Source: Actinokineospora xionganensis
Lineage (GTDB): Bacteria; Actinomycetota; Actinomycetes; Mycobacteriales; Pseudonocardiaceae
DNA: 64,000 nucleotides
Assembly (NCBI RefSeq): GCF_014323725.1
Contig: NZ_JABVED010000006.1
Span: forward strand, 124,001-188,000
Reading direction: 5' to 3'
Shown: piece after piece, positions 7,742 through 53,856 of the stretch
Numbering within the stretch: position 1 is the first letter of the stretch
Layout of the letters: each line of letters begins with the position of its first letter
Position numbers and translations under genes: made by a program
Notes under the pieces: generated by a model
Databases searched by the model: none
Told to the model about the DNA's origin: nothing
The model's input: the letters and a program-made list of their open reading frames with translations, nothing else

Positions 7742-7767
7742 TCTTCCGAGCCCGACCGGCCTCGTAC

Positions 7768-21260: not shown

Positions 21261-22841
21261 TCAGCGGTAAACCAACCGGTGCAGGCCACCGATCACCCGT
21301 CGGTACGCCGAACCGGCCCAGCCCGCCCGCGCCAGCGCGGCTCGGGCGGCGTTGGCTCCGGCGGCGCCGTGCACGCCGCCACCCGGATGGGCCGAGCCAC
21401 CCGCGAGGAACAGGCGGTCGACCGGGGTGTCGGGTCGGCCGAGGCCGGGCACGGGTCGGAAGATGAGCTGCTGGTGGATGGCCGCGGTGCCCGCGTTGAT
21501 GGCACCGTCGACGACGCTGAGGCTGTGTCGGCGCAGTTCCGCCGGTCCCTGGACGGCCCGGCCGAGCACGCGGGCGGTGAACCCGGGCGCGTGTCGTTCG
21601 ATTGTCTTTTCAGCCAGGTCGGCGAGCCGCCGCAGGTCGTCATCGGACCAGGTCCGGTCGCGGGGGACGTGGGTGTAGGCCCAGAGGCTCTCCGTCCCTG
21701 GCGGCGAGCGGCTCGGGTCGGCGGTGGTCATCTGGCCCAGGAGCAGGAACGGCGCCTCGGGTGGGCGGTTGCCCGCCAGGTCGGCGTGCGCCCGCGCGAG
21801 TCCGTCGAGGTCGGCGCCCAAGTGGACGGTTCCGGCCCCGCCCACCGCCGCGGCGGTCCACGGGACCGGGCCGGACAGCGCCCAGTCGATCTTCACTGTG
21901 CTGTCGTCCCAGTGGAAGTTGGCCAGGTCGTCGACGAGCCGGGCGGGCAGGTGCTCCTCGCCGACCAGGTCCCGGTAGAGGATCGGCGCGGGCACGTCGG
22001 CCAGGACCGCGCGCCGGGCCCGGACCGGCTCACCCGCCCGCACCCCCATCGCGCGGCCACCGGCGACCAGCACCTCGGACACCGTGCGTCCACAGTGGAC
22101 TTCGCCGCCGCGGTCCATGAGCCTGCGCACCAGCGCGTCGGTGATGCGGTGCGCCCCGCCCTCCGGGACGGGGAATCCGTTGTCCTGGCCGAGCATGGCG
22201 AGCAGCCAGCCGAACGCGCCGCTGCCCGCGCTGTCCGGTCCGAGGTCGGTGTGCTGGGCGCTGCCCGCGAACAGCAGCGCCGCTCCTTCGCCGCCGAACC
22301 GCTCCTGGCTCAGCCGGCGGGCCGACAGGGTGAACATCCGGGCCAGGCGGAGCAGTTCGGCCGTGCCGAGTGCGCGCGCGAGCCTTCCCGCCGCCCGCAC
22401 CGGTGGGAACGGGCCGAGCAGGGCGGGCAGCAGGTCGCCGCGGATGCGCTGCCAGTAGTCGAATTCCCTACGCCACGCGGCCCCGTCGCCGGGGGCGAAG
22501 GTCTCGACGGAAGCCGCGGTCCGGTCGACGTCGCGGGAGAGCAGGACGTGCCGGTCGTCGGGCAGCACATGTGCGAGCACGGCCGGGGCGTGCGTCCAGC
22601 GCAGGCCATGGCGCTCCAGGTCGAGCTGGGCGAAGACCGGCGACGCGGCGGCGAGCGGGTAGAACGCGCTGCACAGGTCGCTTTGGAACCCTGCAACGGT
22701 GATCTCGGCGCTGCGCACCGCACCGCCGGGTTCCTCCGCGGCTTCCAGCACCAGCACGTCCCACCCGGCGTCGGCGAGCAGGTTGGCCGCCACAAGGCCG
22801 TTGGGTCCGGCGCCGACCACCACGGCGTCGGCGACCGTCAC
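21261..22841 (-). CDS. FAD-dependent phytoene-desaturase-like oxidoreductase
   Basis: 526 residues. The N-terminal dinucleotide-binding motif VVVGAGPNGLVAANLLADAG (residues 7-26) is followed by LEAAEEPGGAVRS. The C-terminal FAD-contact segment LFLAGGSAHPGGGVHGAAGA resembles the CrtI/carotenoid isomerase superfamily. Members desaturate or isomerise polyenes or are uncharacterised; no phytoene synthase is nearby, so a carotenoid role is not supported. It overlaps the upstream SRPBCC gene by ATGA, so the two are coupled. Confidence 0.85.
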   Translation of the reverse strand: MTVADAVVVGAGPNGLVAANLLADAGWDVLVLEAAEEPGGAVRSAEITVAGFQSDLCSAFYPLAAASPVFAQLDLERHGLRWTHAPAVLAHVLPDDRHVLLSRDVDRTAASVETFAPGDGAAWRREFDYWQRIRGDLLPALLGPFPPVRAAGRLARALGTAELLRLARMFTLSARRLSQERFGGEGAALLFAGSAQHTDLGPDSAGSGAFGWLLAMLGQDNGFPVPEGGAHRITDALVRRLMDRGGEVHCGRTVSEVLVAGGRAMGVRAGEPVRARRAVLADVPAPILYRDLVGEEHLPARLVDDLANFHWDDSTVKIDWALSGPVPWTAAAVGGAGTVHLGADLDGLARAHADLAGNRPPEAPFLLLGQMTTADPSRSPPGTESLWAYTHVPRDRTWSDDDLRRLADLAEKTIERHAPGFTARVLGRAVQGPAELRRHSLSVVDGAINAGTAAIHQQLIFRPVPGLGRPDTPVDRLFLAGGSAHPGGGVHGAAGANAARAALARAGWAGSAYRRVIGGLHRLVYR

Positions 22842-23299
22842 CGCGACCCGGGGACGTCGGCGGCGGCGCGGCCGGTGGCCAGGTCGGCGAGCCGGTCAAG
22901 CGCTTCGTTGTTGCGCGGAGTGAGCAGCAGGTCCTGCACGACACCGGGAACGATTTTCGCGGGTCCCGCCGAGACGTGTTCGGTCATGGTGACCCTCGTG
23001 CGGGCGGGACCGAGGTCTTCGAGTTCGAGCCGAACCAGGGCGGCGCCGAAGGGCCACGCCCAGGCGTCGAGTTCGAGCAGCCGGGGCGCGTCGATCTGGC
23101 GGACGACGGTGGCGTCGGACAGGCGCAACGGCCACGGGGCGATGTTGTGGTGGATACGCGAGCCGATGTCCGGCCAGTTCTTGTCGACCGCCCGGATGTG
23201 CGCCGCGCCGACAACCCAGCTCGCGTAGAGCCAGCCGTCGGCCAGGACCGCGAAGACGTCGGCCCGGGGGGCTTCGATCTCCTTGCTCACGACTGCCAT
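22838..23299 (-). CDS. SRPBCC (START-like) family protein
   Basis: 153 residues from ATG 23299 with a perfect AGGAGG five bases upstream. The polyketide-cyclase/START-like fold is suggested by the opening SKEIEAPRADVFAVLADGWLYASWVVG and the beta-rich remainder ending in a helix (PGVVQDLLLTPRNNEALDRLADLA). Such proteins bind hydrophobic ligands. Its translational coupling to the CrtI-like oxidoreductase suggests a shared lipophilic substrate (inference). The divergent promoter region (23300-23423) is shared with the epimerase gene. Confidence 0.85.
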   Translation of the reverse strand: MAVVSKEIEAPRADVFAVLADGWLYASWVVGAAHIRAVDKNWPDIGSRIHHNIAPWPLRLSDATVVRQIDAPRLLELDAWAWPFGAALVRLELEDLGPARTRVTMTEHVSAGPAKIVPGVVQDLLLTPRNNEALDRLADLATGRAAADVPGSR

Positions 23300-23423
23300 C
23301 GAATCCTCCTGCGCCGTGCGGACACTGTCGGGTGGGTACCCCTGGCCCGCTGGGACTAACCCCGTGTGTGGTGACGCCGGAGTGCGGGCATCCCTGGTGG
23401 ACGCCGAGAGAGGGAGTGTCCGG

Positions 23424-24485
23424 GTGAAGGTCGTGGTGACCGGGGCGAGCGGGAACGTCGGAACCGCGCTGCTGCGCGCGGTGCCGCAATGGGAGGCCGT
23501 GGCCAGGCGGGTGCCGCCGCCGCTGCGGCCGTACCAGCGAGCCCGCTGGATCTCCTGCGATCTCGGCGATCCCGGCGCGCACAGCGTGCTCGCCACCGCC
23601 TGCGCGGGCGCCGACGCGGTCGTGCACCTGGCGTGGGCGATCCAGCCGCCGCGGCACGACCCGGCGATGGCGCGCACGAACCGCGCGGGCACCGCGGCCG
23701 TCCTTCGGGCGGTCGCCCAGGCGGGGGTGCCTCAGGTGGTGTCGGCGTCGTCGGTCGCGGCGTATTCTCTCGCCCCGCGGTGGGACAGCGTCACCGAGGA
23801 CCATCAGATCGGCGGAGTCCCGGGAAGCGCGTACAGCGCGGACAAAGCCGCCGTGGAGACCTTGCTCGACGAGTTCGAAGCGACCCACCCGGGTTTGCGA
23901 GTGGCCCGCATCCGCCCCTGCGCCGTCGCCCAGCGCGACGCGGGCGCCCAACTCGCGCGCTGGGCGCTGAGCCCGCTGGTGCCGCGCCGGATCCTGGGCA
24001 ACCGGCTGCTGCCGGTGCCGCTGTGGCCGGACCTGCGGATGCAGGTCGTCCACTCAGACGACGTGGCCGACGCGATCCGCCGTATGGTGACGCTCGGCGC
24101 GACCGGGGCGTTCAACCTGGCCGCCGACCCCGTCCTGCGCACCACCGACTTGGCCGCCGTCCTCGGCGGCTTCGAGGTCACCCTCCCGAGAGCCCTGCTG
24201 AGCGCCCTCGCCGCCGCGGCCTGGAAGGCCGGGCTGCAGCCCATGCACCCTGGCTGGCTGCGGCTGGCCGACGGCGCGCCGCTCATGGCGTCCACCCGGG
24301 CCCGGTCCGAACTGGACTGGACCCCGACCTGGGACGCGCGATCGGCGTTGCGGGACCTGGTCATGGGAATGCGCGCGGGCACCGGTACCTCCAGCGCGCC
24401 ACTGAAGGAACTGGCCGAGTCCCCGCGACCGCGGGCGCTGGGACGGCCGGCGTTCCAGAGCCAACACCAGCCGCGCGCTCGCTGA
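23424..24485 (+). CDS. NAD-dependent epimerase/dehydratase (extended SDR)
   Basis: 353 residues from GTG 23424, preceded by AGAGGGAG. The Rossmann motif VVVTGASGNVGTALLRA is at residues 3-19. An SVAAYS segment and YSADKAAVE (Tyr and Lys of the YxxxK pair) lie near 135-140. The C-terminal half has SDW-like TRARSELDWTPTWD, typical of the SDR group that acts on nucleotide sugars or similar. The substrate is unknown. It is transcribed away from the SRPBCC/oxidoreductase pair, and the esterase remnant converges on it. Confidence 0.85.
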   Translation: MKVVVTGASGNVGTALLRAVPQWEAVARRVPPPLRPYQRARWISCDLGDPGAHSVLATACAGADAVVHLAWAIQPPRHDPAMARTNRAGTAAVLRAVAQAGVPQVVSASSVAAYSLAPRWDSVTEDHQIGGVPGSAYSADKAAVETLLDEFEATHPGLRVARIRPCAVAQRDAGAQLARWALSPLVPRRILGNRLLPVPLWPDLRMQVVHSDDVADAIRRMVTLGATGAFNLAADPVLRTTDLAAVLGGFEVTLPRALLSALAAAAWKAGLQPMHPGWLRLADGAPLMASTRARSELDWTPTWDARSALRDLVMGMRAGTGTSSAPLKELAESPRPRALGRPAFQSQHQPRAR

Positions 24486-24486
24486 C

Positions 24487-25060
24487 CCGTCTCATCGCAG
24501 TGGATGAAGACGTCGTAGCGACGGCGGAGCAGGGTTGGGACGTAGTTGCCGATCCGCTCAGCGCCCGGCCGGTAGACCACCCCGATCGCGCGGTGCGCCC
24601 GAACCTCGTCGGCCCAGTCGTCGTCCGGGCCGGCCGTGAACACGCTGTCCGCCGCGGGAACCGCCGCGTGCGCGACGGCCTCCACGCCGTCCGCGCGGGC
24701 AGGTGGCACGGGCAGGCTCCGGACCGGGCCGCCCCAGAAGTCCGACGCGATCACGCCGCCCGGGTAGCTGCCGAATCCGACAATGGCCACCTCGCGGTGG
24801 GGCGCCGCTACCGGACCAGTTGGCCGGGGTTCACCAGCCCCTCCGACGCCATGCCCGTGGCCCGCGCGTCACCCACATGGGTGTTGTGGGCCCAGACCAC
24901 CGCTTTGGCACCCTTCCCGTAGCCGGTCATCAGCCGGTCGAGCGTGTCGGCCGTGCGCGTGTCGCGCACGTTCCACGACCGCCGGTCGCCGCGCACCATC
25001 TCCCGGCAGTAGCACTCCGCCCCGGCCACGACTTCGGACGCGGGGCAACCGTGGTCAGGC
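24487..25060 (-). pseudogene. Decayed erythromycin-esterase-like gene, C-terminal part
   Basis: Two frames on the minus strand together resemble the C-terminal half of an erythromycin esterase family protein. The first (about 25060-24808) has AECYCREMVRGD, SWNVRDTRTADTLDRLM and VVWAHNTHVGDARA. After a frame change near 24800 the second has VGFGSYPGGVIASDFWGG, HRAIGVVYRPGAERIGNYVP and RRRYDVFIHCDE. Each piece alone is too short for a functional enzyme, and the N-terminal half is missing on this strand. The family hydrolyses macrolide lactones or related esters. Confidence 0.85.
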
Positions 25061-25104
25061 GCCGTCACGGTCCCCTGAGCTCTCGTCAGCTGAGCGCGGG
25101 CTCG

Positions 25105-25152
25105 GACGCGGAGCTGACGAAGTGGCTGATCGCCGAGCGCGGGTTTCAAGCC
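25105..25152 (+). pseudogene. Inverted N-terminal scrap of the esterase-like gene
   Basis: On the plus strand this stretch reads DAELTKWLIAERGFQA, which resembles the N-terminal conserved region of erythromycin-esterase family proteins (the helix after the STHG-type motif). It points away from the C-terminal remnant on the opposite strand directly to its left. This suggests that an inversion broke the gene. The match is only 16 residues, so it needs alignment to confirm. Confidence 0.45.
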
Positions 25153-25168
25153 TATTCGGTCGTCACCC

Positions 25169-25357
25169 CTATTCGGTGGTCACCGAGCGCAGGATCTCGT
25201 CCAGGTTCGCGTAGGTGTCCGGCGGGATGGACCGCAGCTCCCGCAGGGTCTCCCGGTCGGCGTCGGCCTCCTCCGCGCAGCGCAGCAGGTAGTCCTTCTC
25301 GGCCGGGAAGTCCGCCTGGGACAGGGCTTCGTGCAGCCGGTGCCGGTCAGTCGCCAT
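25169..25357 (-). CDS. DUF2795-like small protein
   Basis: 62 residues from ATG 25357. The sequence (FPAEKDYLLRCAEEADADRETLRELRSIP) matches the pattern of DUF2795, in which a helix with KxxLLxxAxxxGAD is followed by LRxLPxxxY. Such proteins occur in actinobacterial stress regions and have no known activity. It follows the PEBP gene by 24 bases on the same strand and is probably cotranscribed with it. Confidence 0.75.
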   Translation of the reverse strand: MATDRHRLHEALSQADFPAEKDYLLRCAEEADADRETLRELRSIPPDTYANLDEILRSVTTE

Positions 25358-25381
25358 CGTTGAGCCTCCGATCGAGTCCGG

Positions 25382-26026
25382 TCACCGGCCGAACAGGCCG
25401 ACGAGGGTGGCGGCCGCCAGCTTGTGGCCGCGAACCGCGTCGTGCACCTGTTCCGCCGTCGCGTCCGCGCCGAGGCCGAGCGGCTCGTCGACGGCGTAGA
25501 GGCGGAAGAAGTACCGGTGCGGGTCGTCGCCCACAGGGGGCGCGGGGCCGTCCCAGCCGGTGCCGCCCCAGCTGTTGCGGCCCTGGGTGACGCCGTCGGG
25601 CAGCTTTCCCTCGGGGAGTTCGTTGACGTCCGGCGAAATCCCGGTCGCGACCCAGTGCACGAAGGTGCCGTCCGGCGCGTCCTTGTCCTCGCAGACGAGC
25701 ACCAGCTCCTGGGTGCCCTCTGGCGGCGGTGTCCACTGCAGCGGCGGCGAGGCGTTGTCCCCGTCGTGCGCGAACCGGTTCGGAATCAGCGTGTGGTCGG
25801 TGAACGCGGCACTGCGGAGCTCGATGACGTTCTCCGGTAGCGGATCGTCCATCGACCGGGTGCCCTTGCTCAGCGACGTCGGAGCCAGTTCGGCAGGCGC
25901 GTCGTCCTGCTGCAACTCCTCGTTGGCGGCCTCGTCGGCCTGGTCGTCGGGCACACCCTGCCGTTCGCGGTCCGCCCGGAGGCGAGTGCGTTTCACGTCG
26001 TACTTGTGGCTGCCGGGTTGCGGCAT
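25382..26026 (-). CDS. PEBP (YbhB/YbcL) family protein with extended N-terminus
   Basis: 214 residues from ATG 26026 with AAGGAGG nine bases upstream. Residues about 65-214 form the YbhB/YbcL phosphatidylethanolamine-binding-like domain: NRFAHDGDNASPPLQWTPPP, CEDKDAPDGTFVHWVATGI, GRNSWGGTGWDGPAPP and HRYFFRLYAVD. The first 60 residues are charged and low in complexity (ADRERQGVPDDQADEAANEE), an extension that most YbhB proteins lack. No enzymatic role is established for bacterial members. It lies in a group of small stress-type genes. Confidence 0.88.
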   Translation of the reverse strand: MPQPGSHKYDVKRTRLRADRERQGVPDDQADEAANEELQQDDAPAELAPTSLSKGTRSMDDPLPENVIELRSAAFTDHTLIPNRFAHDGDNASPPLQWTPPPEGTQELVLVCEDKDAPDGTFVHWVATGISPDVNELPEGKLPDGVTQGRNSWGGTGWDGPAPPVGDDPHRYFFRLYAVDEPLGLGADATAEQVHDAVRGHKLAAATLVGLFGR

Positions 26027-26130
26027 GGTGGAACCTCCTTCCGGTTGAGGTGGATTACCCGAACCACGCGGCGCCAATCGCCGCGTTTCGGCGAGGCCGC
26101 CACCGGTTACCCAGCGTGGAAGGAGGCGGG

Positions 26131-26769
26131 ATGTCAGTTCCGGTCGTCATCGAGTCCTCGGGCGGTGAGCTGCCCGGTGACTTGGCGGTGCCCGCCGAGG
26201 CGCGCGGCATCGTCGTGTTCGCCCACGGATCCGGGAGTTCCCGGCACAGCAGCCGCAACCGGGCGGTGGCGAAAGTGCTGCGTGACAGCGGATTCGCCAC
26301 CCTGCTCATGGACCTGCTGACCGAGGAGGAGGAACAGGTCGACCTGCGGACCAGGGAACTCCGATTCGACATCGACCTGCTCGCCTCGAGGATCTCGACG
26401 GCGGTGGAACAGATCCGGGGGCAACTGGCGGTGCGCGGCCTCCCGGTGGGTCTCTTCGGCGCGAGCACCGGCGCGGCGGCGGCCCTGGTCGCGGCCGCCG
26501 ACGACCACTCAGTGCGCGCCGTTGTGTCCCGGGGAGGCAGACCCGACCTGGCCGGGGACGCCCTCGCCCAAGTCCAGGCACCCACCCTGCTCATCGTCGG
26601 CGCACTCGACACCCAGGTCCTCAACCTCAACGAACAGGCAAGTCGGGCACTCGCCGCGCCCAACCGCATCGAAGTCATCCCCGGCGCGACTCACCTGTTC
26701 GAGGAACCAGGCACCCTCGACCGAGTCGCGGAACTGGCCGCGGACTGGTTCCGCGAGCACGTCCACTAG
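26131..26769 (+). CDS. Dienelactone-hydrolase-like alpha/beta hydrolase
   Basis: 212 residues; GGAGGCGGG abuts the ATG. The fold markers are VVFAHGSGSSRHS (oxyanion region), LFGASTGAAAAL with a nucleophile elbow GASTG at about residue 110, the Asp in VGALDTQV and the His in PGATHLFEE. The triad therefore looks complete. Homologues in actinobacteria often sit beside or are fused to phosphoribosyltransferases; none is present here. The substrate is unknown. It is divergent from the PEBP gene. Confidence 0.85.
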   Translation: MSVPVVIESSGGELPGDLAVPAEARGIVVFAHGSGSSRHSSRNRAVAKVLRDSGFATLLMDLLTEEEEQVDLRTRELRFDIDLLASRISTAVEQIRGQLAVRGLPVGLFGASTGAAAALVAAADDHSVRAVVSRGGRPDLAGDALAQVQAPTLLIVGALDTQVLNLNEQASRALAAPNRIEVIPGATHLFEEPGTLDRVAELAADWFREHVH

Positions 26770-27146
26770 GACTTCCGCCATCGCCCCCAACTCGACCCGG
26801 TGTCGCGCCGACGCGACTCCTTGCCGGTACCGGGCGGAAAGCCATGTTGGGTGAGCCGGGCCTCGCTCAGCTCGTCGGCGCTGGTCACGGTGAAATACAG
26901 GCTCAACAGCAGACCGAGCCCAAGTGCGCCCAGTGTCGGGAGCACCGGCACCGGGGTCAGCCAGGTCAGCAGCAGGAAACCGGCGACCAGCCAGGGCAGC
27001 GCCTGGACCACGATGCGGCTTGCGTAGCGCAGCAGCCAGGTCCGGGTGGTCGCGTCGTGCAGGACCCAGTCCCGGTAGTCGTCGGGCAGCCTGCCGCCAT
27101 ACGCGTAGTAGACCCACTGCAGAGGGTTCGGTCGCCGCATCGCCAT
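26766..27146 (-). CDS. DUF5313-like membrane protein
   Basis: 126 residues. It opens with RRPNPLQWVYYAYGGRLPDDYRDWVLHD, the pattern of DUF5313 proteins, followed by two hydrophobic segments (about 45-85) and a basic tail. The ATG at 27146 lies only one base after a perfect 28-bp palindrome and has no visible Shine-Dalgarno, so the message may be leaderless; a second ATG is six bases downstream. It converges with the hydrolase gene, overlapping by four bases. The function is unknown. Confidence 0.8.
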   Translation of the reverse strand: MAMRRPNPLQWVYYAYGGRLPDDYRDWVLHDATTRTWLLRYASRIVVQALPWLVAGFLLLTWLTPVPVLPTLGALGLGLLLSLYFTVTSADELSEARLTQHGFPPGTGKESRRRDTGSSWGRWRKS

Positions 27147-27147
27147 A

Positions 27148-27175
27148 CCGGACGGCTACCCGGGTAGCCGTCCGG
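27148..27175. promoter_or_regulatory. Perfect 28-bp palindrome at the DUF5313 start
   Basis: CCGGACGGCTACCC (27148-27161) is followed immediately by its exact reverse complement (27162-27175). It sits one base before the DUF5313 start codon on the minus strand, in the 192-base space before the divergent protease gene. It contains GGGTA, the minus-10 core of SigB-type actinobacterial stress promoters. It could be an operator, a promoter with dyad symmetry or a hairpin. Confidence 0.7.
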
Positions 27176-27338
27176 CCACACGAAGTCGGGCACTCCATCT
27201 CGGCCAATCCGACCACCCCCTTCACGAATGAGCGACCGTCCTAGGCCGTCCAGGCGTATTTGCGCACCCGATCTTGCTCGGCGACCCCTGGCTGCTGCAC
27301 GATCACCGCGGCACTCAGCCGAGGGGGAGGCAATCAGC

Positions 27339-28184
27339 GTGTCGGGGGTTGACACAGGCACGCGCGCGCTCGTCCTGACCGGGTTGGACCGGCTCATGGC
27401 CCGCTCCGTCGGCGACCCGGCCATCGGCATCGGTGTCCTCGACGGACCCGCCGTGCTCGACCACCCCGACCTCGCGGCCCCGATCACCGAGATCCGCCCC
27501 GGCGCCTGCGCGGTCGCGACCAGCGCCGCCTGCGGACACGGCACCCTGGTCGCGGGTGTGCTGGGCGCCCGGCGGGGAACCGAGGCCCCCGGGCTGGCGC
27601 CGCGCTGTCCGCTGCTGCTGCGGCCGATCTTCACCGAGGACGGCGCCCCGACGGTCCCGGCCGTGCTCGCCGACGGCATCGTCGAGTGTGTCGCGGCGGG
27701 CGCCAGGATCATCAATGTCAGCGCCGCCTTCACCGGCGCCGCGCCAACCGGAGCCCACCTGCTCACCGAGGCCCTGGACCACGCCGCGCGCAACGGGGTG
27801 CTCGTGGTCGCCGCGACCGGCAACGAAGCCCGGCTCGGCGGGTCACCGCTCACCACCCACCCCTGGGTCATCCCCGTGACCGCCTGCGACGACTCGGGCG
27901 TGCCGCTGGCCGCGTCGAACCTGGGCGGGTCGATCGCCCGCACCGGAGTCCGCGCGCCGGGCGCCCGGCTCGTGAGCCTGAGCAGCTCCGGCGGGTTCGC
28001 CGCGTTCGGCGGAACCAGCGCCGCCGCGCCCGTGGTCACCGGCGCGATCGCGTTGGCCTGGTCCCTCGCGCCGCATGTCGAAGCCGCCACCGTGCGGGCG
28101 GCGGTGCGCGGGCGGGCGGGGCGCGGCCTGGTGCCACCACTGCTGGACGCCGTCGCCATCCACGACGCCGTGACACGGAGCTGA
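27339..28184 (+). CDS. Subtilisin-like S8 serine protease (PatA/PatG-type, no signal peptide)
   Basis: 281 residues from GTG 27339 with GGAGG eight bases upstream; the longer frame to 27228 adds an unconserved basic stretch. The triad is complete: D35 (GVLDGP), H67 (CGHGTLVAG), S227 (GGTSAAAP), with oxyanion N162 (ATGNEA). It is short, with no signal peptide and no propeptide, so it is probably cytosolic, like the maturation proteases of cyanobactin pathways rather than secreted subtilases. It is the first of four tightly spaced genes: a 61-aa CGGC protein starts two bases after its stop, then a PatG-DUF-like protein and a peritrophin-like protein. It is a candidate leader peptidase for the small proteins (inference). 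Confidence 0.9.
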   Translation: MSGVDTGTRALVLTGLDRLMARSVGDPAIGIGVLDGPAVLDHPDLAAPITEIRPGACAVATSAACGHGTLVAGVLGARRGTEAPGLAPRCPLLLRPIFTEDGAPTVPAVLADGIVECVAAGARIINVSAAFTGAAPTGAHLLTEALDHAARNGVLVVAATGNEARLGGSPLTTHPWVIPVTACDDSGVPLAASNLGGSIARTGVRAPGARLVSLSSSGGFAAFGGTSAAAPVVTGAIALAWSLAPHVEAATVRAAVRGRAGRGLVPPLLDAVAIHDAVTRS

Positions 28185-28185
28185 C

Positions 28186-28371
28186 ATGAGCCAAGAGCGC
28201 GCGCCGCGCAAGATCCGACTGCCCGGGTTCCTGGTCGAAGAGGAGATCGGACTCGGCGACGTCATCAAACACGCCACCTCGTCGGCCGGGATCAAGCCCT
28301 GCGGCGGCTGCGCCAAACGCGCCGCCGCCCTCAACCGCTGGGTGTCGTTCGCACCCCGCACCACCAAATAG
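28186..28371 (+). CDS. 61-aa CGGC protein with PGF leader-like N-terminus
   Basis: 61 residues. The N-terminal part carries RLPGFLVEEEIGLGD; the C-terminal part reads TSSAGIKPCGGCAKRAAALN. Two Cys in a C-x-x-C arrangement could bind metal, form a disulfide or be modified. I do not recognise a characterised family, though the GIKPCGGC/RAAALNRW pattern feels conserved among bacterial small proteins. It lies one base after the protease stop and just ahead of the PatG-DUF-like gene, so it is in the same operon. Roles worth considering are precursor peptide, protease substrate or small adaptor. Confidence 0.75.
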   Translation: MSQERAPRKIRLPGFLVEEEIGLGDVIKHATSSAGIKPCGGCAKRAAALNRWVSFAPRTTK

Positions 28372-28386
28372 ATGAGTGAAGGACAG

Positions 28387-29256
28387 ATGACCGAGCTTCT
28401 CGATCCCACCCCCGGCCCGGCCTCGGTCGTGCCCGCCGCGGTGCCCGCACCCGGAGTCCGCGCCGCGGGTGGGCCCACGTCGGTGAACGTCCGCTACGTG
28501 TACGCGATCGGCCGGATCGAACCCCGCTTCCCCAGCCTGGGTTTGGAGAAGGAGTTCGCCCAGGCCACCGGCCGCGCCGACACCGCGGGCCTGACCGACC
28601 GCGAGACCGTCCACGCGGTGCTCTCCGACCCGGCGAACCGCTACCTGGCACGGCAGCTGTGCTGGGTGTTCTCCATCGAGGGCCAGGAGTGCTACCTGCT
28701 GCTCCCCCGCGACGCCAACGACCTGGACATGGTGATCGAGGCGATCCGCCCGGCCCCCGTGTCCGGTGACATCGACGTGATCATCGGCGCCGCCGCCGGG
28801 CTCGCCCCCGCCGACATGTGCAACGGCCTCATCGTGCCGATGCTCGCCTTCGACCAGGTGTACTCGTTCGACACCGAGTCCTTCATCGCGGCGATCCCGA
28901 GGCCGCAAGCCCTGGCGGAGAACGACTTCCAGGCGGCCGCCCGCGAGCTGTTCGCCCGGATCCAGCAGCTGGCGGACAACGCGGGCGCCACCGACGAGCA
29001 CCGCGCGGTCAACTACCTGGCGATGCGCTACCCGGCCATCTACGCCCACGCCACCGAGCAGTTCGCGCGCAGCCTGTCGCTGACCGGTGTCGAGGTCACC
29101 CCGTCGCGGCTCTCCGGTGTGCGCACGCTGGTCAACGTGGTCTTCACCTACACGCACCGCACCACCGCGGTCACGGAGAAGCACGCGGCGCGGGTGGACG
29201 TCACCGAGCAGTTCCCGTTCCTGGCAAGCCCGCTCGCCCCGTACTACGACCGCTGA
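28387..29256 (+). CDS. PatG C-terminal-domain-like protein
   Basis: 289 residues from ATG 28387, preceded by GAAGGA; an ATG at 28372 with no Shine-Dalgarno would add five residues. After a Pro/Ala-rich start the sequence YVYAIGRIEPRFPSLGLEKE, then CWVFSIEGQECYLLLP, resembles the domain of unknown function at the C-terminus of the cyanobactin macrocyclase PatG. In PatG this domain is fused behind a subtilisin domain; here the protease is a separate gene two positions upstream. No catalytic motif is evident. The assignment is from remembered family patterns and needs a profile search. Confidence 0.7.
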   Translation: MTELLDPTPGPASVVPAAVPAPGVRAAGGPTSVNVRYVYAIGRIEPRFPSLGLEKEFAQATGRADTAGLTDRETVHAVLSDPANRYLARQLCWVFSIEGQECYLLLPRDANDLDMVIEAIRPAPVSGDIDVIIGAAAGLAPADMCNGLIVPMLAFDQVYSFDTESFIAAIPRPQALAENDFQAAARELFARIQQLADNAGATDEHRAVNYLAMRYPAIYAHATEQFARSLSLTGVEVTPSRLSGVRTLVNVVFTYTHRTTAVTEKHAARVDVTEQFPFLASPLAPYYDR

Positions 29257-29268
29257 GCAAGGAGAACC

Positions 29269-29589
29269 ATGGCATTCCCCGGTTTCACCGCCCACCAGGC
29301 GCTCACCCCGGCGACCGGGCGCTACCGCTCCGGCGCCACCCGCGACGGCGGCATGATCGCGGTGGTCCCCGCGAGCTTCACCTACGACTGCTCAGGCAAG
29401 GTGGACGGCAACTACCCGCACCCCACCAAGTGCGACCATTACATCGCCTGTGTCGCGGGTACGCACGCCTATGAGATGCCGTGCGCGATGGGACACGACG
29501 GACAACGTCTGCACTACGTTCAGGATTCGGGACCGGACCCGGCGAAGTCGCGGTGCGACTACCCCGAGGTCGCGGGCTGCGCTTCCTAG
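29269..29589 (+). CDS. Small protein with chitin-binding type-2 (peritrophin-A) cysteine pattern
   Basis: 106 residues. The N-terminus AFPGFTAHQALTPATGRYR is leader-like; from residue 40 six Cys are spaced C-13-C-5-C-10-C-23-C-7-C. This matches the chitin-binding type-2 (CBM14) layout apart from the long fourth gap, with the aromatic residues YPHP and HYIAC in the usual places. CBM14 is typically animal or baculoviral and rare in bacteria. There is no conventional signal peptide, although the disulfide-rich domain implies export. AAGGAG precedes the ATG. It is the last gene of the protease/PatG-like operon and a candidate product. Confidence 0.8.
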   Translation: MAFPGFTAHQALTPATGRYRSGATRDGGMIAVVPASFTYDCSGKVDGNYPHPTKCDHYIACVAGTHAYEMPCAMGHDGQRLHYVQDSGPDPAKSRCDYPEVAGCAS

Positions 29590-29599
29590 TCCTGGCAAC

Positions 29600-29634
29600 C
29601 AGGTCCGGACCTGCCGAACGCAGGTCCGGACCTG
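29600..29634 (+). terminator. Terminator built from two copies of a 14-bp palindrome
   Basis: CAGGTCCGGACCTG occurs at 29600-29613 and again at 29621-29634, separated by CCGAACG. Each copy is self-complementary, and the two copies can also pair with each other to give a 14-bp stem with a 7-base loop; ATTTCG follows. It starts 11 bases after the stop of the peritrophin-like gene and so closes the operon. Confidence 0.8.
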
Positions 29635-29855
29635 ATTTCGTCAGGCGGAACGGGGGCAGGGACCTGCGCGAGCATGGCGTCGGCGGTGGCGCCGCGCCGG
29701 GCGGTGACCGGCAGGCCGAGCTGGTCGGTGAGCAGCCTGCCGGTGGTTCCGGTGCCGTACGAGCGGAATCCGGACAGTTCGGCGGAGCGCCGCCTGGCCC
29801 AGGCGAGCAAGTCGGCCTTGCGCGAGTCGTGTGTGACCAAGGCGCTCGACCGCGG
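29635..29855 (-). pseudogene. Methylglyoxal-synthase-like gene with internal deletion
   Basis: The minus strand reads ALVTHDSRKADLLAWAR, then YGTGTTGRLLTDQLGLPVT, which are the first conserved blocks of methylglyoxal synthase. It then goes straight to RGATADAMLA, matching the family's C-terminal NRATAD block. The roughly 50 residues between, including the GPLGGDQQ motif and most active-site residues, are missing without loss of frame. No start codon precedes the homology, and the frame runs into the terminator palindromes. An intact enzyme would convert dihydroxyacetone phosphate to methylglyoxal. Confidence 0.75.
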
Positions 29856-30136
29856 GCCGGATGGCGGCGGCGCGTCGTCGAGCAGCCAGTCCGGGTCGGC
29901 CGACGGGTGGAGGTGGATGGCGGCGGAGCACAGATCCGTCGGGTGATCTTGCCGTCGGCGTCCACCGAGGCGAAGTGCAGGGTCGAGTCACGGAAGTGCG
30001 GGTCGAGGTCGTACATCCGGAACATGGCGGTGATGCGGGTAACCAGTCCTCAGTGGACACCAAGGTTCCCGACCAGGGCCAGGTACACCGAGTTGTCGGA
30101 CTCGCTGAGCCCGACCGGTTCGAGCAGATACGCCAT
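29856..30136 (-). pseudogene. Scrambled remnant, possibly of a TrmB-like regulator
   Basis: An ATG at 30136 opens a 28-codon frame (LLEPVGLSESDNSVYLALVG) like the first helix region of the TrmB-like regulator at 13.4 kb, then stops at 30050. Other frames downstream give MFRMYDLDPHFRDSTLHFAS and, after a shift near 29943, DLCSAAIHLHPSADPDWLLD, which runs on into the methylglyoxal-synthase remnant. Conserved-looking pieces in alternating frames indicate decay, but I cannot name the later pieces. Confidence 0.45.
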
Positions 30137-30277
30137 GCGCACACCGTAGGAGAAACGGCCCCGGTCGGCTGTCCACAATCCGTGTCCTGTTCACGACATC
30201 GTCCGGTAACGGACTGTGAAAGTCGCCGAATCGGTCCTACAGTCGAGGTGCGCCCGTTTCGCGGGGCGCAGCGCGGC

Positions 30278-30347
30278 GGCTACCGGCAGGGGGTAGCCGG
30301 CGCGCCGGCGCCCGCCCGCATCTCCGATAGCCCTCGCGCGGGCGGGC
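30278..30347. terminator. Cluster of three inverted repeats downstream of the VOC gene
   Basis: GGCTACC/GGTAGCC (30278-30284 and 30292-30298), the self-complementary GCCGGCGCGCCGGC (30296-30309) and GCCCGCCCGC/GCGGGCGGGC (30310-30319 and 30338-30347) lie back to back. They fall within 90 bases after the minus-strand VOC gene stop. They probably form its terminator, but the stacking of three hairpins is unusual. Confidence 0.55.
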
Positions 30348-30365
30348 TGCCACCAACCGGCACCG

Positions 30366-30740
30366 TCACCCCTGCGGCTTGACGATCTGCTGCACCGCCC
30401 AGCCGTTGCCGTCGGGGTCGCTGAAGAACACGAAGCGGCCCCACGGGAAGTCCTGGATCTCGCTCGCCTCGACCCCGTTCGCGACCAGGTCGGCCCGCGC
30501 CGCCTCGATGTCGGACACCACGACCTGAAGCCCTTCGACCGAACCCGGCGCCGCCTTGGTGACGCCGTTGCCGATGGCGATGGAGCACGCCGACCCGCGC
30601 GGAGTGAGTTGGACGAAGCGGATGTCGTCGCTGACCCGGTGGTCGTGGTCGGCGACGAAGCCGACCTGCTCGGTGTAGAACGCCTTCGCCCGGTCCACGT
30701 CGGACACGGGCACCGCCACCAGTTCCAGCTTGCAGTCCAT
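30366..30740 (-). CDS. VOC (glyoxalase-like) family protein
   Basis: 124 residues from ATG 30740, with AGAGGAC upstream. It has the beta-alpha-beta-beta-beta pattern of vicinal-oxygen-chelate proteins: an opening KLELVAVPVSDVDRAKAFYTEQVGF and a closing WGRFVFFSDPDGNGWAVQQI. Members include glyoxalases, dioxygenases and antibiotic-binding proteins. The metal-ligand set is incomplete by eye, so no reaction is assigned. The 74-base gap upstream may hold its promoter. Confidence 0.85.
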   Translation of the reverse strand: MDCKLELVAVPVSDVDRAKAFYTEQVGFVADHDHRVSDDIRFVQLTPRGSACSIAIGNGVTKAAPGSVEGLQVVVSDIEAARADLVANGVEASEIQDFPWGRFVFFSDPDGNGWAVQQIVKPQG

Positions 30741-30814
30741 GGTCTGTCCTCTTTCGGTCGCGCTCGTTGACATATCCAAGCTACCGACCCTTGCGGACAG
30801 GTTCGGTCCGCAAG

Positions 30815-31075
30815 TCACTTCGGGCGGACATTCCGCAGGGAAATCCCGTCCGAGTCGGAGATGCGGTCGGCGCCGATCGCGCGCAGACCCTCCCCCAGGC
30901 GCTCACGGGCCTGGCGCAGCAGCGTGAGCGAGTTGGTGGAGGTGCTCTGGACCGCCTCGCGGTCAAGATCGGCGCCATGTCCCTCGACCAGGAAGGTCTG
31001 CAGGGCGGCGGCGACCTCGTCGACCGCCTTGAGCGCCTGGTAGATGGCGAAGTCCCGGTTGTCGTCGTCAGCCAT
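30815..31075 (-). CDS. Conserved-looking small helical protein, unknown function
   Basis: 86 residues from ATG 31075. It appears alpha-helical and acidic at the start (MADDDNRDFAIYQALKAVDEVAAALQTF), with a LTLLRQARERLGEGL segment. There is no membrane span and no Cys. I do not recognise it. Codon usage fits a real gene, and it is divergent from the cyclase gene 83 bases away. Confidence 0.6.
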   Translation of the reverse strand: MADDDNRDFAIYQALKAVDEVAAALQTFLVEGHGADLDREAVQSTSTNSLTLLRQARERLGEGLRAIGADRISDSDGISLRNVRPK

Positions 31076-31158
31076 GGGTTCGAGTATCCGGCAACCGGCG
31101 CGCCTCGGCCCGGTAAGGATCACATCGCCGAACCGCCGCGAACCCGTAGGGTTTCGCT

Positions 31159-31965
31159 GTGAGCGACGCACCAGACGAGCGGGCCGACGAACGCCGGTGG
31201 ACCCGGTTGCGGCGCCTGCTGCGCGCGTCGGACCAGCACGAGGGTGTCCTCAAGACGGTGCGGACGGTCCGACGGCTCGCCCCCGGCCACATGGCCCCGG
31301 CGATCGGCGACCGGCCATCGGACCGCATCGCCCGGCTCATCAGCCAGGCCAGGGCCGACCAGCCCAGCGCCGTGCGCGAACTCGGCCTGACCGCGGTGCA
31401 GGTGTGGCAGGCGCTCAGCGGCTCCGGTCCCGCCGCCCACGGCACGGAGGTCACCATCCTGTTCACCGACCTCGTCGGCTTCTCCAGCTGGGCGCTGGAG
31501 GCGGGCGACGACCAGGTGCTGCGGCTGCTCGGCGAGGTCGGCCAGGCCAGCGACAAGGTCATCACCCAGCATGGCGGCACAGTCGTCAAGTCTCTCGGGG
31601 ACGGGGTGATGGCCGTCTTCCGCGACACCGGGCCCGCCATCGACGCCGCCTACGAGGCGTGCACCGCCATCAGCGCCATCACCATCGAGGGCTACCGTCC
31701 GCAGCTGCGCACCGGCCTGCACTCCGGCAGGCCCCGCCGGGTCGGCTCCGACTACCTCGGCGTCGACGTCAACGTGGCCGCCCGGGTGGCCGCCGCGGCG
31801 GGCGGCGGCGAGGTGCTCGTGTCCGGACCGGCGCTGGCCAACGTCGACACCGACCGCTACACCATCCGGCGCCGCCGCCGCTTCCGCGCGAAGGGCACAC
31901 CCCGCGATCTGGAGGTGTTCTCGGTGGTCCCGCGCTACGGCGACGACGCCGTGCACGGTCGGTGA
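31159..31965 (+). CDS. Class III adenylate/guanylate cyclase domain protein
   Basis: 268 residues from GTG. An N-terminal helical region (1-90) precedes a catalytic domain (about 95-260). Both metal-binding Asp are present (LFTDLVGF and SLGDGVMAVF), as are the KSLGD Lys and the transition-state pair in GVDVNVAARV. The Lys and the Asp of YLGVDVN favour ATP over GTP. It is soluble, with no membrane span or HAMP domain, so the sensing part would be the short N-terminal helix bundle. Catalytically competent by motif, and therefore probably a cAMP-forming enzyme. Confidence 0.88.
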   Translation: MSDAPDERADERRWTRLRRLLRASDQHEGVLKTVRTVRRLAPGHMAPAIGDRPSDRIARLISQARADQPSAVRELGLTAVQVWQALSGSGPAAHGTEVTILFTDLVGFSSWALEAGDDQVLRLLGEVGQASDKVITQHGGTVVKSLGDGVMAVFRDTGPAIDAAYEACTAISAITIEGYRPQLRTGLHSGRPRRVGSDYLGVDVNVAARVAAAAGGGEVLVSGPALANVDTDRYTIRRRRRFRAKGTPRDLEVFSVVPRYGDDAVHGR

Positions 31966-32114
31966 CCACGGCGACACCCTTTTCTCGGATAACCAGCGTA
32001 AACTGAGTGGGCCGGTGCCTCGCGCACGTCGGCCACTGCGATGACACCGCAGTGACGCTTGGCAACCCAGCCGCAGCGCCAGCCGGTCGCAAGCCCGGGG
32101 ACAGGAGCGCCGGC

Positions 32115-32570
32115 ATGACGTCCGGCCAATTCGACCACCGCGCCACGGCAAGAGCGTTCACCGAGCGCACCGACGCCCGGGTCAGCCTCAAACCAGCGGG
32201 CGCGACAAAGGGGTTCTTCGACGGCGGCTGGTGGCCCCGGTCCCGCGAACCTGTCGCGGAGTTCTCCACGCTGATCTCCAGTCTCGCCGAGCGGTTCGGC
32301 CCGGTCGACCGGATCGGCTACAGCCGCGGGTCATGGGACACCGCGCCCGACCGGCTCCTCGTGGGCCAGAACACCGTGCGGCTGCAAGGTTTCCGCGGCA
32401 TGAACGCGCACACGATCGTCCTCATCGGACCGAATCTCCGCCGGGTCACGCTGCTGGTCGTGCCCGCGCACGCCGCCGCGGACCCCGCGAACACGGCGCT
32501 GGACACGGTGGCCGCCGCCGACTGTGTCGCCGACGCAGCCCTCATTCTTACCGCTATTTCCCCATTCTGA
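32115..32570 (+). CDS. DUF5994-like protein
   Basis: 151 residues from ATG 32115 with AGGAG eight bases upstream. The pattern RVSLKPAGATKGFFDGGWWPRSREP, then VDRIGYSRGSWDTAPDRL, matches DUF5994, a family of unknown function common in actinobacteria. The leader from 31966 contains a small hairpin (ACTGCG/CGCAGT around 32035-32053) of unclear meaning. The next gene begins 16 bases after its stop, so cotranscription is likely. Confidence 0.8.
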   Translation: MTSGQFDHRATARAFTERTDARVSLKPAGATKGFFDGGWWPRSREPVAEFSTLISSLAERFGPVDRIGYSRGSWDTAPDRLLVGQNTVRLQGFRGMNAHTIVLIGPNLRRVTLLVVPAHAAADPANTALDTVAAADCVADAALILTAISPF

Positions 32571-32586
32571 ACGGAAGTCCTTCTCG

Positions 32587-33744
32587 ATGGCTCTACTCAC
32601 TCTCGGCATCCTTTCCCAGTCCAGCAAGGAGAACGAACACCGGCGGCCGATCCACCCGTTGCACTTCGACCGGATCGACGCCGACCTGCGCGCCCAGATG
32701 TACCTCGAGACCGGGTACGGCGAGCGCTTCGACGTCCCCGACGAGGAGCTCGCCCCGCTCGTGGCGGGCATCCGCCCGCGCGAATGGCTGCTCGCCGAGT
32801 GCGACGTCATCCTCAACCCGAAGCCGCTGGCCAAGGACGTCGACACCCTGCGCGACGGACAGGTGCTCTGGGGCTGGCCGCACTGCGTGCAGGACGCGGC
32901 GGTCACCCAGTCGGCGATCGACGGCAAGCTGACCCTGATCGCGTTCGAGGCGATGAACCACTGGACCAGCGACGGCCGGTTCAACCTGCACGTGTTCCAC
33001 AAGAACAACGAACTCGCGGGCTACTGCTCGGTGATGCACGCGCTGCAGCTCACCGGGAGCACAGGCGACTACGGCCGCAGGCTGCGCGCGGTCGTCATCG
33101 GCTTCGGCGCCACCGCCCGCGGCGCGGTCACCGCGCTCAACGCCCACGGCGTGCACGACGTGCACATCCTCACCGGCCGGGGCGTCACCGCGGTCAGCTC
33201 GCCGATCCACTCGGCGAACATCGTGCACCTGGAGAGCGACGACACCGACCCGCGCGGCAGCCACGCGATGACCGACAGCGGCCGCAAGCCGTTGGCCGAC
33301 TTCCTCGCCGAGCACGACATCGTCGTCAACTGCGTGCTGCAGGACACCGACGCGCCGCTGATGTTCCTGATGGAGGAGGACCTCGACCGGTTCCCCCCGC
33401 GCAGCCTCATCATCGATGTCTCCTGCGACGAGGGCATGGGCTTCAGCTGGGCCGTGCCGACGACGTTCACCGAGCCGATGTTCACCGTGGGCGACCGGGT
33501 CCGGTACTACGCCGTCGACCACAGCCCGTCGCACCTGTGGGACGCCGCCACCTGGGAGATCAGCGAGGCGCTGCTCCCCCACCTGCGGACCGTGCTGTCG
33601 GGACCGGAGGCCTGGGAGTCCGACCCCACCATCGGCCGGGCCATCGAGATCCGCGACGGCGTCATCCGCAACCCGAGCATCCTGGCCTTCCAGGGCCGCG
33701 CCGCCGAGTACCCGCACGAACGGCCGATCCCGGGCGGACAGTGA
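32587..33744 (+). CDS. Alanine dehydrogenase/N5-(carboxyethyl)ornithine synthase family protein
   Basis: 385 residues. The N-terminal AlaDH/PNT domain opens with LGILSQSSKENEHRRPIHP (KENEHRRP is the family hallmark). The Rossmann motif is VVIGFGATARGAVTALNAHG near residue 175, and the C-terminal part has CDEGMGFSWAVPTTF and VDHSPSHLWD. Family members are NAD(P)H-dependent dehydrogenases or reductive condensing enzymes that join pyruvate to an amino acid. The exact substrate cannot be read from sequence. Probably cotranscribed with the DUF5994 gene. Confidence 0.85.
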   Translation: MALLTLGILSQSSKENEHRRPIHPLHFDRIDADLRAQMYLETGYGERFDVPDEELAPLVAGIRPREWLLAECDVILNPKPLAKDVDTLRDGQVLWGWPHCVQDAAVTQSAIDGKLTLIAFEAMNHWTSDGRFNLHVFHKNNELAGYCSVMHALQLTGSTGDYGRRLRAVVIGFGATARGAVTALNAHGVHDVHILTGRGVTAVSSPIHSANIVHLESDDTDPRGSHAMTDSGRKPLADFLAEHDIVVNCVLQDTDAPLMFLMEEDLDRFPPRSLIIDVSCDEGMGFSWAVPTTFTEPMFTVGDRVRYYAVDHSPSHLWDAATWEISEALLPHLRTVLSGPEAWESDPTIGRAIEIRDGVIRNPSILAFQGRAAEYPHERPIPGGQ

Positions 33745-33949
33745 CCTGCGCCACTCCCGGGAACAAACCGCCGACGCCGGCGGTTGTGCCTGGTGGTCGT
33801 CAAAGTTTGTGTTCGTGTGTCAAAGCTCGCGGAAACGATGGTTGCGGGCGCTCTCTTCTTGTTGGACAAGCTGGAGATGTCGTCGTCTGACCCGACCCGG
33901 GTACCGCGGTTCGCGGAACCCGATCCAGCACCACAAGTAGGAGAATTCA

Positions 33950-34150
33950 ATGACTCAGGGAACCGTGAAGTGGTTCAACGCCGAAAAGGGTTTCGGCTTC
34001 ATCGCGCATGAGGGTGGCCCGGACGTGTTCGTCCACTACTCCGAGATCGACTCCAACGGCTTCCGCAGCCTGGACGAGAACGCGCGCGTCGAGTTCGAGA
34101 TCACCCAGGGCCCCAAGGGCCCGCAGGCCGTCGGCGTGCGCATCGTCTGA
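33950..34150 (+). CDS. cspA: Cold-shock protein (CspA family)
   Basis: 66 residues. It has RNP1 KGFGFIAHE and RNP2 VFVHYSEI on the five-stranded OB fold, and it is of normal length. It binds single-stranded nucleic acid as an RNA chaperone. TAGGAG precedes the ATG. The 205-base gap upstream is typical of long cold-shock leaders that control translation, though I see no named element in it. A strong terminator follows. Confidence 0.97.
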
Positions 34151-34168
34151 GCAATCCCCACGGACTAC

Positions 34169-34201
34169 CGGCCCCTCGACCCGTCATGGGTCGGGGGGCC
34201 G
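34169..34201 (+). terminator. Terminator after cspA
   Basis: CGGCCCCTCGACCC (34169-34182) pairs with GGGTCGGGGGGCCG (34188-34201), a 14-bp stem with one mismatch and a five-base loop. It starts 19 bases after the stop. Confidence 0.85.
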
Positions 34202-34249
34202 TTCGTGTATGGCCGACGGTGTACCGTCGAGGATGCGAGAGGTGAGAAA

Positions 34250-34750
34250 ATGACTGCGTTCGCTCCCACCAACAAGGTGTCCACTCCGACGCTGCCAGAG
34301 GGCTGGCCGATCGGCTCCTACGACACCTACGACGAGGCCCAGCGCGCCGTCGACCACTTGGCGCGCAAAGACTTCCCGGTCGAGACGCTGACCATTGTCG
34401 GCATCGACCCGATGCTCGTCGAGCGGGTGGACGGCAAGCTGACGTGGGCCCGCGTCCTCGGCGCGGGCGCGGCGTCCGGCGCGTGGCTGGGCCTCATGGT
34501 CGGCCTGCTGCTCAGCCTGGTCACCGAGGGTGGCGCCCTCGCGCCGATCCTCATCGGCCTGGTCACCGGCCTCGCCTTCGGGATGGTTTCGGCCGCACTC
34601 AAGTACCGGCCGGCGAAGGGCAAGCGCGACTTCGTCTCGCACAGCCAGCTCGTCGCCCGCCGCTACGACGTGCTCAGCCTGCCCAAGACCGCCGAACAGG
34701 GCCGCGACATCCTCGCGCAGCTCGCGCTGGCGCGGCCGCCGCGGGGCTGA
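34250..34750 (+). CDS. General-stress membrane protein (GSP17M-like)
   Basis: 166 residues. An N-terminal soluble part (GSYDTYDEAQRAVDHLARKDFPVETLTIVG) resembles the ferredoxin-like domain of general-stress protein 17M. Next come a Gly-rich double membrane segment (about 75-118) and a short C-terminal tail. Such proteins are SigB-type stress-regulon members of unknown activity. AGAGGTGAG precedes the ATG. It converges on the IS630-derived gene. Confidence 0.85.
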   Translation: MTAFAPTNKVSTPTLPEGWPIGSYDTYDEAQRAVDHLARKDFPVETLTIVGIDPMLVERVDGKLTWARVLGAGAASGAWLGLMVGLLLSLVTEGGALAPILIGLVTGLAFGMVSAALKYRPAKGKRDFVSHSQLVARRYDVLSLPKTAEQGRDILAQLALARPPRG

Positions 34751-48215: not shown

Positions 48216-48638
48216 ATGAGCGACACCAAGCGCACGGTATCCATCGAGCGGGCGGCCCTGGGTCGCTATGAGATCACCAACGCCCGCGGCGGCACCATCA
48301 CCATCGGCGAAGGCGAGGACACCGACTTCACCCCCGTGGAACTGCTGCTCGCCGCCATCGGTGGCTGCACCGCCATCGACGTCGACTACATCACGAGCCG
48401 CCGAGCCGAACCCACAGCCTTCACCGTCACCGTCACCGGCGACAAACTCCGCGACGCCGAACGTGGCAACCACATGGACAACCTGGAAGTCACCTTCACC
48501 GTCCGCTTCCCCGAAGGCCCGGAAGGCGACACCGCTCGAGAAGCCCTCCCCCGCGCCGCCAAGCAGTCCCACGACCGTCTGTGCACCGTCAGCCGCACCG
48601 TCGAGGCGGGCACCCCGGTCCACGTCGAGGTCCGCTAG
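48216..48638 (+). CDS. OsmC-family peroxidase
   Basis: 140 residues with GGAAGGA upstream. Both family Cys are present: C51 in AAIGGCTAIDV and C123 in HDRLCTVSRT, together with TPVELLLAAIGGC. OsmC proteins reduce organic hydroperoxides by a thiol mechanism. It is a stress-defence gene that fits the rest of the region. Its last four bases overlap the convergent PH-domain gene. Confidence 0.92.
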   Translation: MSDTKRTVSIERAALGRYEITNARGGTITIGEGEDTDFTPVELLLAAIGGCTAIDVDYITSRRAEPTAFTVTVTGDKLRDAERGNHMDNLEVTFTVRFPEGPEGDTAREALPRAAKQSHDRLCTVSRTVEAGTPVHVEVR

Positions 48639-49009: not shown

Positions 49010-49018
49010 GAACCCATG

Positions 49019-52099: not shown

Positions 52100-52118
52100 G
52101 GCTGCTCCAGGTCGGCCC

Positions 52119-52325: not shown

Positions 52326-52333
52326 CGTGGACA

Positions 52334-53847: not shown

Positions 53848-53856
53848 GTGTTCACC

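Follow-up and report, generated by a model that had tools for sequence, protein, structure and literature searches.

A PatA-type protease, a CGGC protein and a free-standing PatG-type domain as a candidate leader-directed maturation cassette for small cysteine-rich proteins

A stretch of 64,000 nucleotides from the actinomycete Actinokineospora xionganensis (contig NZ_JABVED010000006.1, positions 124,001 to 188,000; hereafter the window) carries four open reading frames (ORFs) head to tail on the plus strand, of which the first three constitute the putative processing cassette considered here and the fourth its candidate precursor. Separated by gaps of 1, 0 (or 15) and 12 bases, in agreement with the close spacing reported in an earlier sequence-only reading, these genes encode a serine protease of family S8 with 281 residues (27339..28184), the 61-residue CGGC protein already recognized there (28186..28371), a stand-alone protein of 294 residues composed of PatG_D and PatG_C, the C-terminal domain of unknown function (DUF) of PatG and PatA (28372..29256; hereafter the PatG_DC protein), and a protein of 106 residues with six cysteines (29269..29589). 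The protease starts with the GTG at 27339, which is equally the first start of a 91%-identical relative (genome G014), and the frame is open upstream to an alternative ATG at 27228; for the PatG_DC protein the start at 28372 is used, with a second in-frame ATG at 28387.

The protease matches Pfam Peptidase_S8 (4.8e-24) and possesses the intact triad D35, H67 and S227 that had been noted before, with these residues conserved in 53, 53 and 56 of 56 aligned S8 rows and gaps in the remainder, while neither a signal peptide nor a propeptide is seen by eye. The closest solved chain is 4h6w, the 'N-terminal cyanobactin protease' (2.7e-30), and 4h6w, 3zxx, 4h6v and 3zxy match at 2.7e-30 to 5.7e-27, of which we take 3zxx, 3zxy and 4h6v to be structures of PatA. 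PatGmac, the macrocyclase of PatG that is distinguished by a macrocyclase-specific helical insertion, was ruled out as the closest relative, as its chains (4aks/4akt/4h6x) match only partially, at about 2e-12, and rank below ordinary subtilisins (1e-16). By sequence comparison, the window protease is thus of the PatA type and not of the PatG macrocyclase type; its score with TIGR03895 lies below the cut-off (100.7 of 421 bits).

The likeness of the third protein to the C-terminal part of PatG is borne out by profile searches (Pfam PatG_D, 1.1e-29; PatG_C, 6.4e-33) and by a fold corresponding to the PatG C-terminal DUF (PDB 4UVQ) at 17% identity. Its N-terminal tail is modelled with low confidence (predicted local distance difference test, pLDDT, about 43-56). 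Among 58 such tails, the motif [VILM]xP[QAS] occurs in 47 (shuffled sequences: mean 14.2, maximum 23), the narrower [VILM]xPQ in 30 (mean 2.6, maximum 8) and a CxC or CxxC pair in 48 (mean 4.2, maximum 12); the window tail holds VVPA (28426..28437), the same form as in the leader end of the window precursor, and no cysteine pair. According to the 2014 PatG-DUF structure paper, which could not settle what the DUF does, a PatG-type C-terminal DUF is also carried by PatA (PMC4259220). Since the protease is PatA-like (4h6w, 2.7e-30) and PatA possesses the DUF, a split PatA describes the set better; the former view of a split PatG is retained in so far as protease and DUF are separate, but not with respect to the parent protein. 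Two adjoining divergent PatG_C-like stretches have also been observed on a Photobacterium plasmid (L012, 6584-8639), in a 14.6-kb locus without S8 or CGGC match.

When the six-cysteine protein encoded by the fourth gene was used in a tblastn search, matches in other cassettes were found mainly over its N-terminus; of the seven matches other than that in the near-identical L002, two (L010 and L013) extend past this leader into the cysteine-rich part and, given these, some cores may be distantly related. A simple pattern retrieved 71 leader ORFs in 43 sources and a profile 138, spread over 53 of 63 sources, with no match in reversed and shuffled ORF sets; as the 138 ORFs include some short or overlapping calls (9479-9748 and 9501-9728 in L026; four ORFs below 55 residues), about 135 precursors were used. 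The leader comprises about 36 residues with the consensus M-x-x-PGFTAExSLY-x5-Y-...-V-x-P-(Q/A), and an end motif [VILM]xP[QAS] near residue 36 is present in 100 of 135 precursors (mean after shuffling 12, maximum 24), its last position, the P1 residue, being Q in 62, A in 30 and S in 8. Fifty of the 138 ORFs begin within about 100 nucleotides of the PatG_DC stop codon. The window precursor scores 1.9e-12 with the leader profile, the sole match at an expectation (E) value of 1 or below in the 6.8-Mb genome, where 150 of 249 candidates were scored. We infer a cut at or near V-x-P-(Q/A), in the window after the VVPA at 29362-29373 (residue 35), which would divide the protein into the leader MAFPGFTAHQALTPATGRYRSGATRDGGMIAVVPA (29269..29373) and a predicted mature core of 71 residues with cysteines at positions 41, 55, 61, 72, 96 and 104 (29374..29586). 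No Pfam or NCBIfam model matches the leader in 133 precursors, and the strings PGFTAE, PGFTAEASL, PGFTADASL and PEFTAEASL do not occur in the open-licence PMC full text searched; the precursor family and its processing cassette are apparently undescribed. As the leader contains no hydrophobic stretch by eye, it does not resemble an ordinary Sec signal. In L042 (9933-10814), a leader ORF with a long cysteine-rich core lies on the strand opposite to the cassette.

The sequences behind the leader are mostly unrelated, with 134 cores falling into 59 clusters, 44 of them singletons, and 131 of 133 precursors without a Pfam family at E 0.01. Cysteines make up 0.4% of residues 1-36 and 12.2% thereafter, and 55 of 58 cluster representatives with cysteines contain an even number of them (compared with an expectation of one half, p 1e-13; among control ORFs 60% are even), a test with one count per cluster taken from the first member, in which one 47-member cluster is joined by loose similarity; over all 138 ORFs, 127 counts are even, 7 odd and 4 have no cysteine. 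A cysteine-poor shared leader followed by a varied remainder with even cysteine number amounts to a pattern of leader and disulfide-type core, and the conserved leader, variable core and linked processing enzyme that generally characterize precursors of ribosomally synthesized and post-translationally modified peptides are all found here. With the leader common to about 135 otherwise mostly unrelated cysteine-rich proteins, the small protein is the likely product of the system. In the window this product would be a 71-residue six-cysteine protein with likeness to peritrophin-A (chitin-binding): CBM_14 matches at 9.7e-8 (32.5 bits, gathering threshold 22.1) over residues 41-75 and profile positions 1-34 of 53. 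The peritrophin-like character described earlier therefore holds for the window protein but does not extend to the system as a whole, as CBM_14 matches 1 of 133 precursors; a copy in G014, outside the set, is 90% identical to that of the window.

Since the cores fall into so many clusters, no common C-terminal recognition sequence was seen among them, no separate test for one having been made, which weighs against a cyanobactin-type macrocyclisation where the S8 enzyme joins the core ends. Although PatG_D and PatG_C are known from PatA and PatG (PMC4259220), such a ring closure is highly improbable, as residues 12-243 of the 281-residue protease align to the N-terminal cyanobactin protease while the macrocyclase covers only 77-254, weakly, and as 6 of 10 cassette genomes tested are without any YcaO gene. 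Among the 88 precursors that do not follow PatG_DC immediately, 17 show similarity to the PatG_DC 3' end within 200 nucleotides upstream (control: 3 of 2000 windows on the same strand at equal database size), ending 30-47 nucleotides before the precursor in 14 cases and 116 nucleotides before it in L041; the remnants in L015 and L060 (139 and 164 nucleotides) are probably the true gene end. The presence of these remnants in front of later precursors suggests that precursor arrays grow by duplication or recombination at the PatG_DC-leader junction.

Beyond the window, 60 PatG_DC-bearing loci were compared (the window, L002, L006 and L008-L064), of which 56 contain S8 and 53 CGGC. The order S8-CGGC-PatG_DC on one strand is found by ORF coordinates in 46 of 51 complete loci, and in 48 once the over-long ORFs of L013 and L045 are discounted, with L006, L036 and L060 rearranged. 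One scan of GTDB genomes provided 52 loci and, being built on two peptide patterns, favours the split type and is no census. By the titles of their records, the cassette rows span nine phyla; these labels are the submitters' own, with many metagenome-assembled genomes among the records. Since the trio S8, CGGC and PatG_DC is met again in records of other phyla, the gene set of the window is not a chance arrangement; of the four-gene operon first suggested, three genes form a conserved cassette, whereas the CBM_14 core of the fourth is not conserved with them. Distances of S8 and PatG_DC correlate with r 0.82 and those of each with CGGC at about 0.5 (n=50), in Mantel and tree analyses that take in near-identical Nitrosospira. 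Four plasmids carry both PatG_DC and CGGC. Carriage on plasmids, together with a match of the window protease to the PADLOC subtilase model (2.6e-14), might point to an anti-phage or toxin-antitoxin type operon with S8 as effector; this we consider improbable in the extreme, as the other three genes have no PADLOC match at E 0.01, no cassette relative is found in the pattern-matching stretches of viral contigs and the leader-core pattern would be left unexplained.

Leader and cassette also coincide genome-wide. In Actinomycetota the set is rare: PatG_C is present in 4 of 396 genomes, split in two of these and fused in the other two. Only the pair with split PatG_DC has leaders at E<=1e-4 (18 candidates per genome scored); the pair with fused genes has none. 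Within the window's genus, 2 of 16 genomes have the set. Among 61 relatives, leaders are found in the two with the cassette. Among 120 genomes from the same family as G459 (Nitrosospira), the leader is present in 16 of 16 with PatG_C and in 1 of 104 without, and 43 of 46 searched cassette genomes (of the 52 loci) have leader matches, the exceptions being L032, L043 and L064. In several Nitrosospira genomes extra leader genes lie on other contigs, and 12 distant stretches from such genomes hold leader genes without adjoining S8, CGGC or PatG_DC.

The CGGC protein, without a Pfam family in the case of the window, displays [LI]PGF near the N-terminus and is predicted to form a hairpin of two helices, the second of which begins with the CxxC (AlphaFold, pLDDT 88.2). 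Both cysteines are invariant across 45 rows, 44 other proteins share 48-76% identity with that of the window, and the gene is single-copy in most searched genomes, with a second copy in L042 (11066-11236). It was not found in G461, G469, G470, G471 and G483, and G462 and G465 have a broken copy; all seven genomes keep PatG_DC, S8 and precursors, the S8 match of G471 (L035) changing frame. G496 is also without CGGC, but on a contig that is cut. The protein thus appears as an accessory helper that is not universal. That CGGC itself is the real product, as an invariant small-molecule or cofactor precursor to which the leader proteins are secondary, would accord with its small size, conservation and position between enzymes and with the [LI]PGF block that it and the leader have in common (hhalign P 2.7e-4, probability 41%, a weakly supported similarity), but is very unlikely in view of its absence in five and breakage in two precursor-containing genomes and as leader proteins multiply and diversify, which CGGC does not. 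The sequence-only proposal that the small proteins are the products consequently applies to the six-cysteine protein with its shared leader and not to the conserved, mostly single-copy and sometimes absent CGGC protein. At about 7568-7747, the CGGC gene is broken in two Nitrosospira multiformis strains (L026 and L029) and intact in a third (L023). A protein of Nonlabens phage P12024S without assigned function (L065, 2501-2602) resembles CGGC residues 22-55 with 50% identity, and PHROG 32048 matches the CGGC protein at 4.8e-7.

Downstream of the window precursor, two copies of the 14-bp palindrome CAGGTCCGGACCTG at 29600..29634 (plus strand) form a 15-bp hairpin, the probable operon end, and the 66-nucleotide stretch with the hairpin folds at -41.2 kcal/mol (z -7.3); the double palindrome described previously is therefore present, although as a terminator it is not followed by a clean U run. 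In a family scan, ten neighbour proteins between 21261 and 34747 look unrelated to the cassette (amine oxidase, epimerase, PEBP, DLH hydrolase, DUF5313, glyoxalase, a guanylate cyclase domain, AlaDH-like, YflT and one without family). Further away, at 48635-58000, mostly minus-strand ORFs, many with third-position GC below the rest, are possibly acquired. In six nitrosomonad loci (L024, L031, L033, L034, L037 and L038), a gene that from its sequence is presumably tyrosinase-like recurs near the cassette.

On the basis of conserved cassette, shared leader, variable even-cysteine cores, genome-wide co-occurrence, PatA-type protease and PatG-DUF fold, as established from sequence, we propose with a probability of roughly 0.8 that small disulfide-rich proteins are matured by a stand-alone, leader-directed system built from PatA/PatG parts. 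A precursor would be made with an almost cysteine-free leader of about 36 residues displaying the blocks PGFTAExSLY...Y and V-x-P-(Q/A); the presumably cytosolic PatA-type S8 protease and the PatG-type DUF protein, usually with the CGGC helper, would recognize this leader, and the protease would cut at or near V-x-P-(Q/A) to free an even-cysteine core. Several precursors, adjoining or distant on the chromosome, could in this way be served by a single machine, with new cores arising behind a constant leader. The parts are of known kinds; their combination and the substrates appear new. The cassette appears in records of nine phyla, with nitrifiers, methanotrophs, acidobacteria, actinomycetes and cyanobacteria among its carriers, and its products would constitute a large unexplored set of small even-cysteine proteins. 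Equally, a handle on PatG/PatA DUF function is provided, as the DUF occurs here as a free protein with putative natural substrates.

Several observations weigh against this proposal. The exact end motif is missing in 35 of 135 precursors, a cysteine precedes it in 13 of 99, and the acidic residue at -5 of the ElxP-type motif considered below is rare (6 of 100). According to the structural report, isolated PatG-DUF did not bind the precursor PatE in nuclear magnetic resonance (PMC4259220), which weakens a leader-binding role of the DUF. No leader ORF was obtained from 7 of 60 loci: L011, L012, L032, L043, L058 (contig ends), L059 and L064. L064 has a divergent leader ORF by eye, and the genome of L059 a weak match on the same contig (E 1e-4), but in L032 and L043 another gene follows the cassette and their genomes hold no leader match. 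Conversely, G050, a relative without PatG_DC, gives a weak leader match (E 0.0024), and G518 holds a leader gene (L112, 2640-2939) where PatG_C was not found, possibly a relic or an assembly gap. Finally, no transporter or modifying enzyme recurs beside the cassette across phyla, which leaves the export of a disulfide-rich product unexplained. This point equally bears on an alternative in which the leader acts as a tag for sorting or export and S8, PatG_DC and CGGC form a docking or translocation-coupled unit to an exporter elsewhere, with cutting as a secondary event. Cores that look like extracellular disulfide proteins, a leader without hydrophobic stretch by eye, the lack of a recurrent local exporter and the position of some precursors in trans are all in line with such a tag, which is nevertheless unlikely given the PatA-like protease with its conserved triad, the cleavage-like motif at the leader end and three cassette proteins that, by eye only, do not appear membrane-bound. 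As to the different gene behind the cassette in L032 (7331-7921) and L043 (8944-9540), Streptomyces loci near the window's branch, it encodes a 196-198-residue protein with four cysteines and no PGF leader, possibly another kind of client.

The maturation proposal can be extended, more speculatively and with rather low expectation, to a phylum-spanning cytosolic factory in which both leader blocks recur in the partner proteins, [LI]PGF weakly mirrored in CGGC and V-x-P-Q in the flexible N-terminal tail of the DUF protein, where CxC or CxxC follows in most relatives. The DUF would then be a protease-organizing scaffold with a redox tail that docks in, or is cut by, S8; the CxxC motifs, that of CGGC at a helix start, would shuttle thiols, and cores would undergo oxidative folding before or during leader removal. 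Recombination at the 3' end of PatG_DC would enlarge the precursor arrays, its traces being the fossils 30-47 nucleotides before some later precursors. If true, the long-unexplained DUF of PatG and PatA would be assigned a role.

Among known systems, PatA of the patellamide pathway shares the S8 leader-removing protease type and the same C-terminal DUF (PMC4259220), and, like the role proposed here, cuts behind the N-terminal leader of a ribosomal precursor. In contrast to PatA, the cassette has protease and DUF as separate genes with CGGC in between and no linked YcaO, and its precursors have another leader and longer even-cysteine cores. In accordance with the earlier observations, no YcaO is found among the ten neighbour proteins at 21261-34747, the two YcaO genes of the genome being located on other contigs, and the known cyanobactin sites G(L/V)E(A/P)S and AYDG are both absent from the window precursor, to which this search was limited. 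Compared with the PatG C-terminal DUF of 4UVQ, the cassette protein is free-standing and distant, with V-x-P-(Q/A/S) in the N-tail and, in most relatives but not in the window, the cysteine pair. ElxP of epilancin 15x is a cytoplasmic S8 leader peptidase with the motif (D/E-5)-(L/V-4)-X2-(Gln-1) (PMC10885120), and V-x-P-Q fits its positions -4 to -1; unlike in the ElxP system, no lanthipeptide enzyme recurs beside the cassette. Some cassette precursors lie in trans, as do those of prochlorosins. In prochlorosin-type systems one machine likewise serves many precursors with constant leader and variable cores (PMC10783134), whereas the cassette has a different leader, disulfide-type cores and no lanthionine synthetase. 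Fused actinomycete S8-PatG_DC proteins (L003, L005 and L007) unite the same two domains in one polypeptide through a cysteine-rich linker; a PGF leader is missing from these three loci and from the L005 and L007 genomes. Adjoining the fused S8-PatG_DC genes of two actinomycetes, L005 and L007, are small cysteine-poor peptides with a P(V/I)DRT stretch (L005 2203-2367 / L122 6308-6472; L007 199-1185, with four similar copies; L123), which probably represent a second precursor family.

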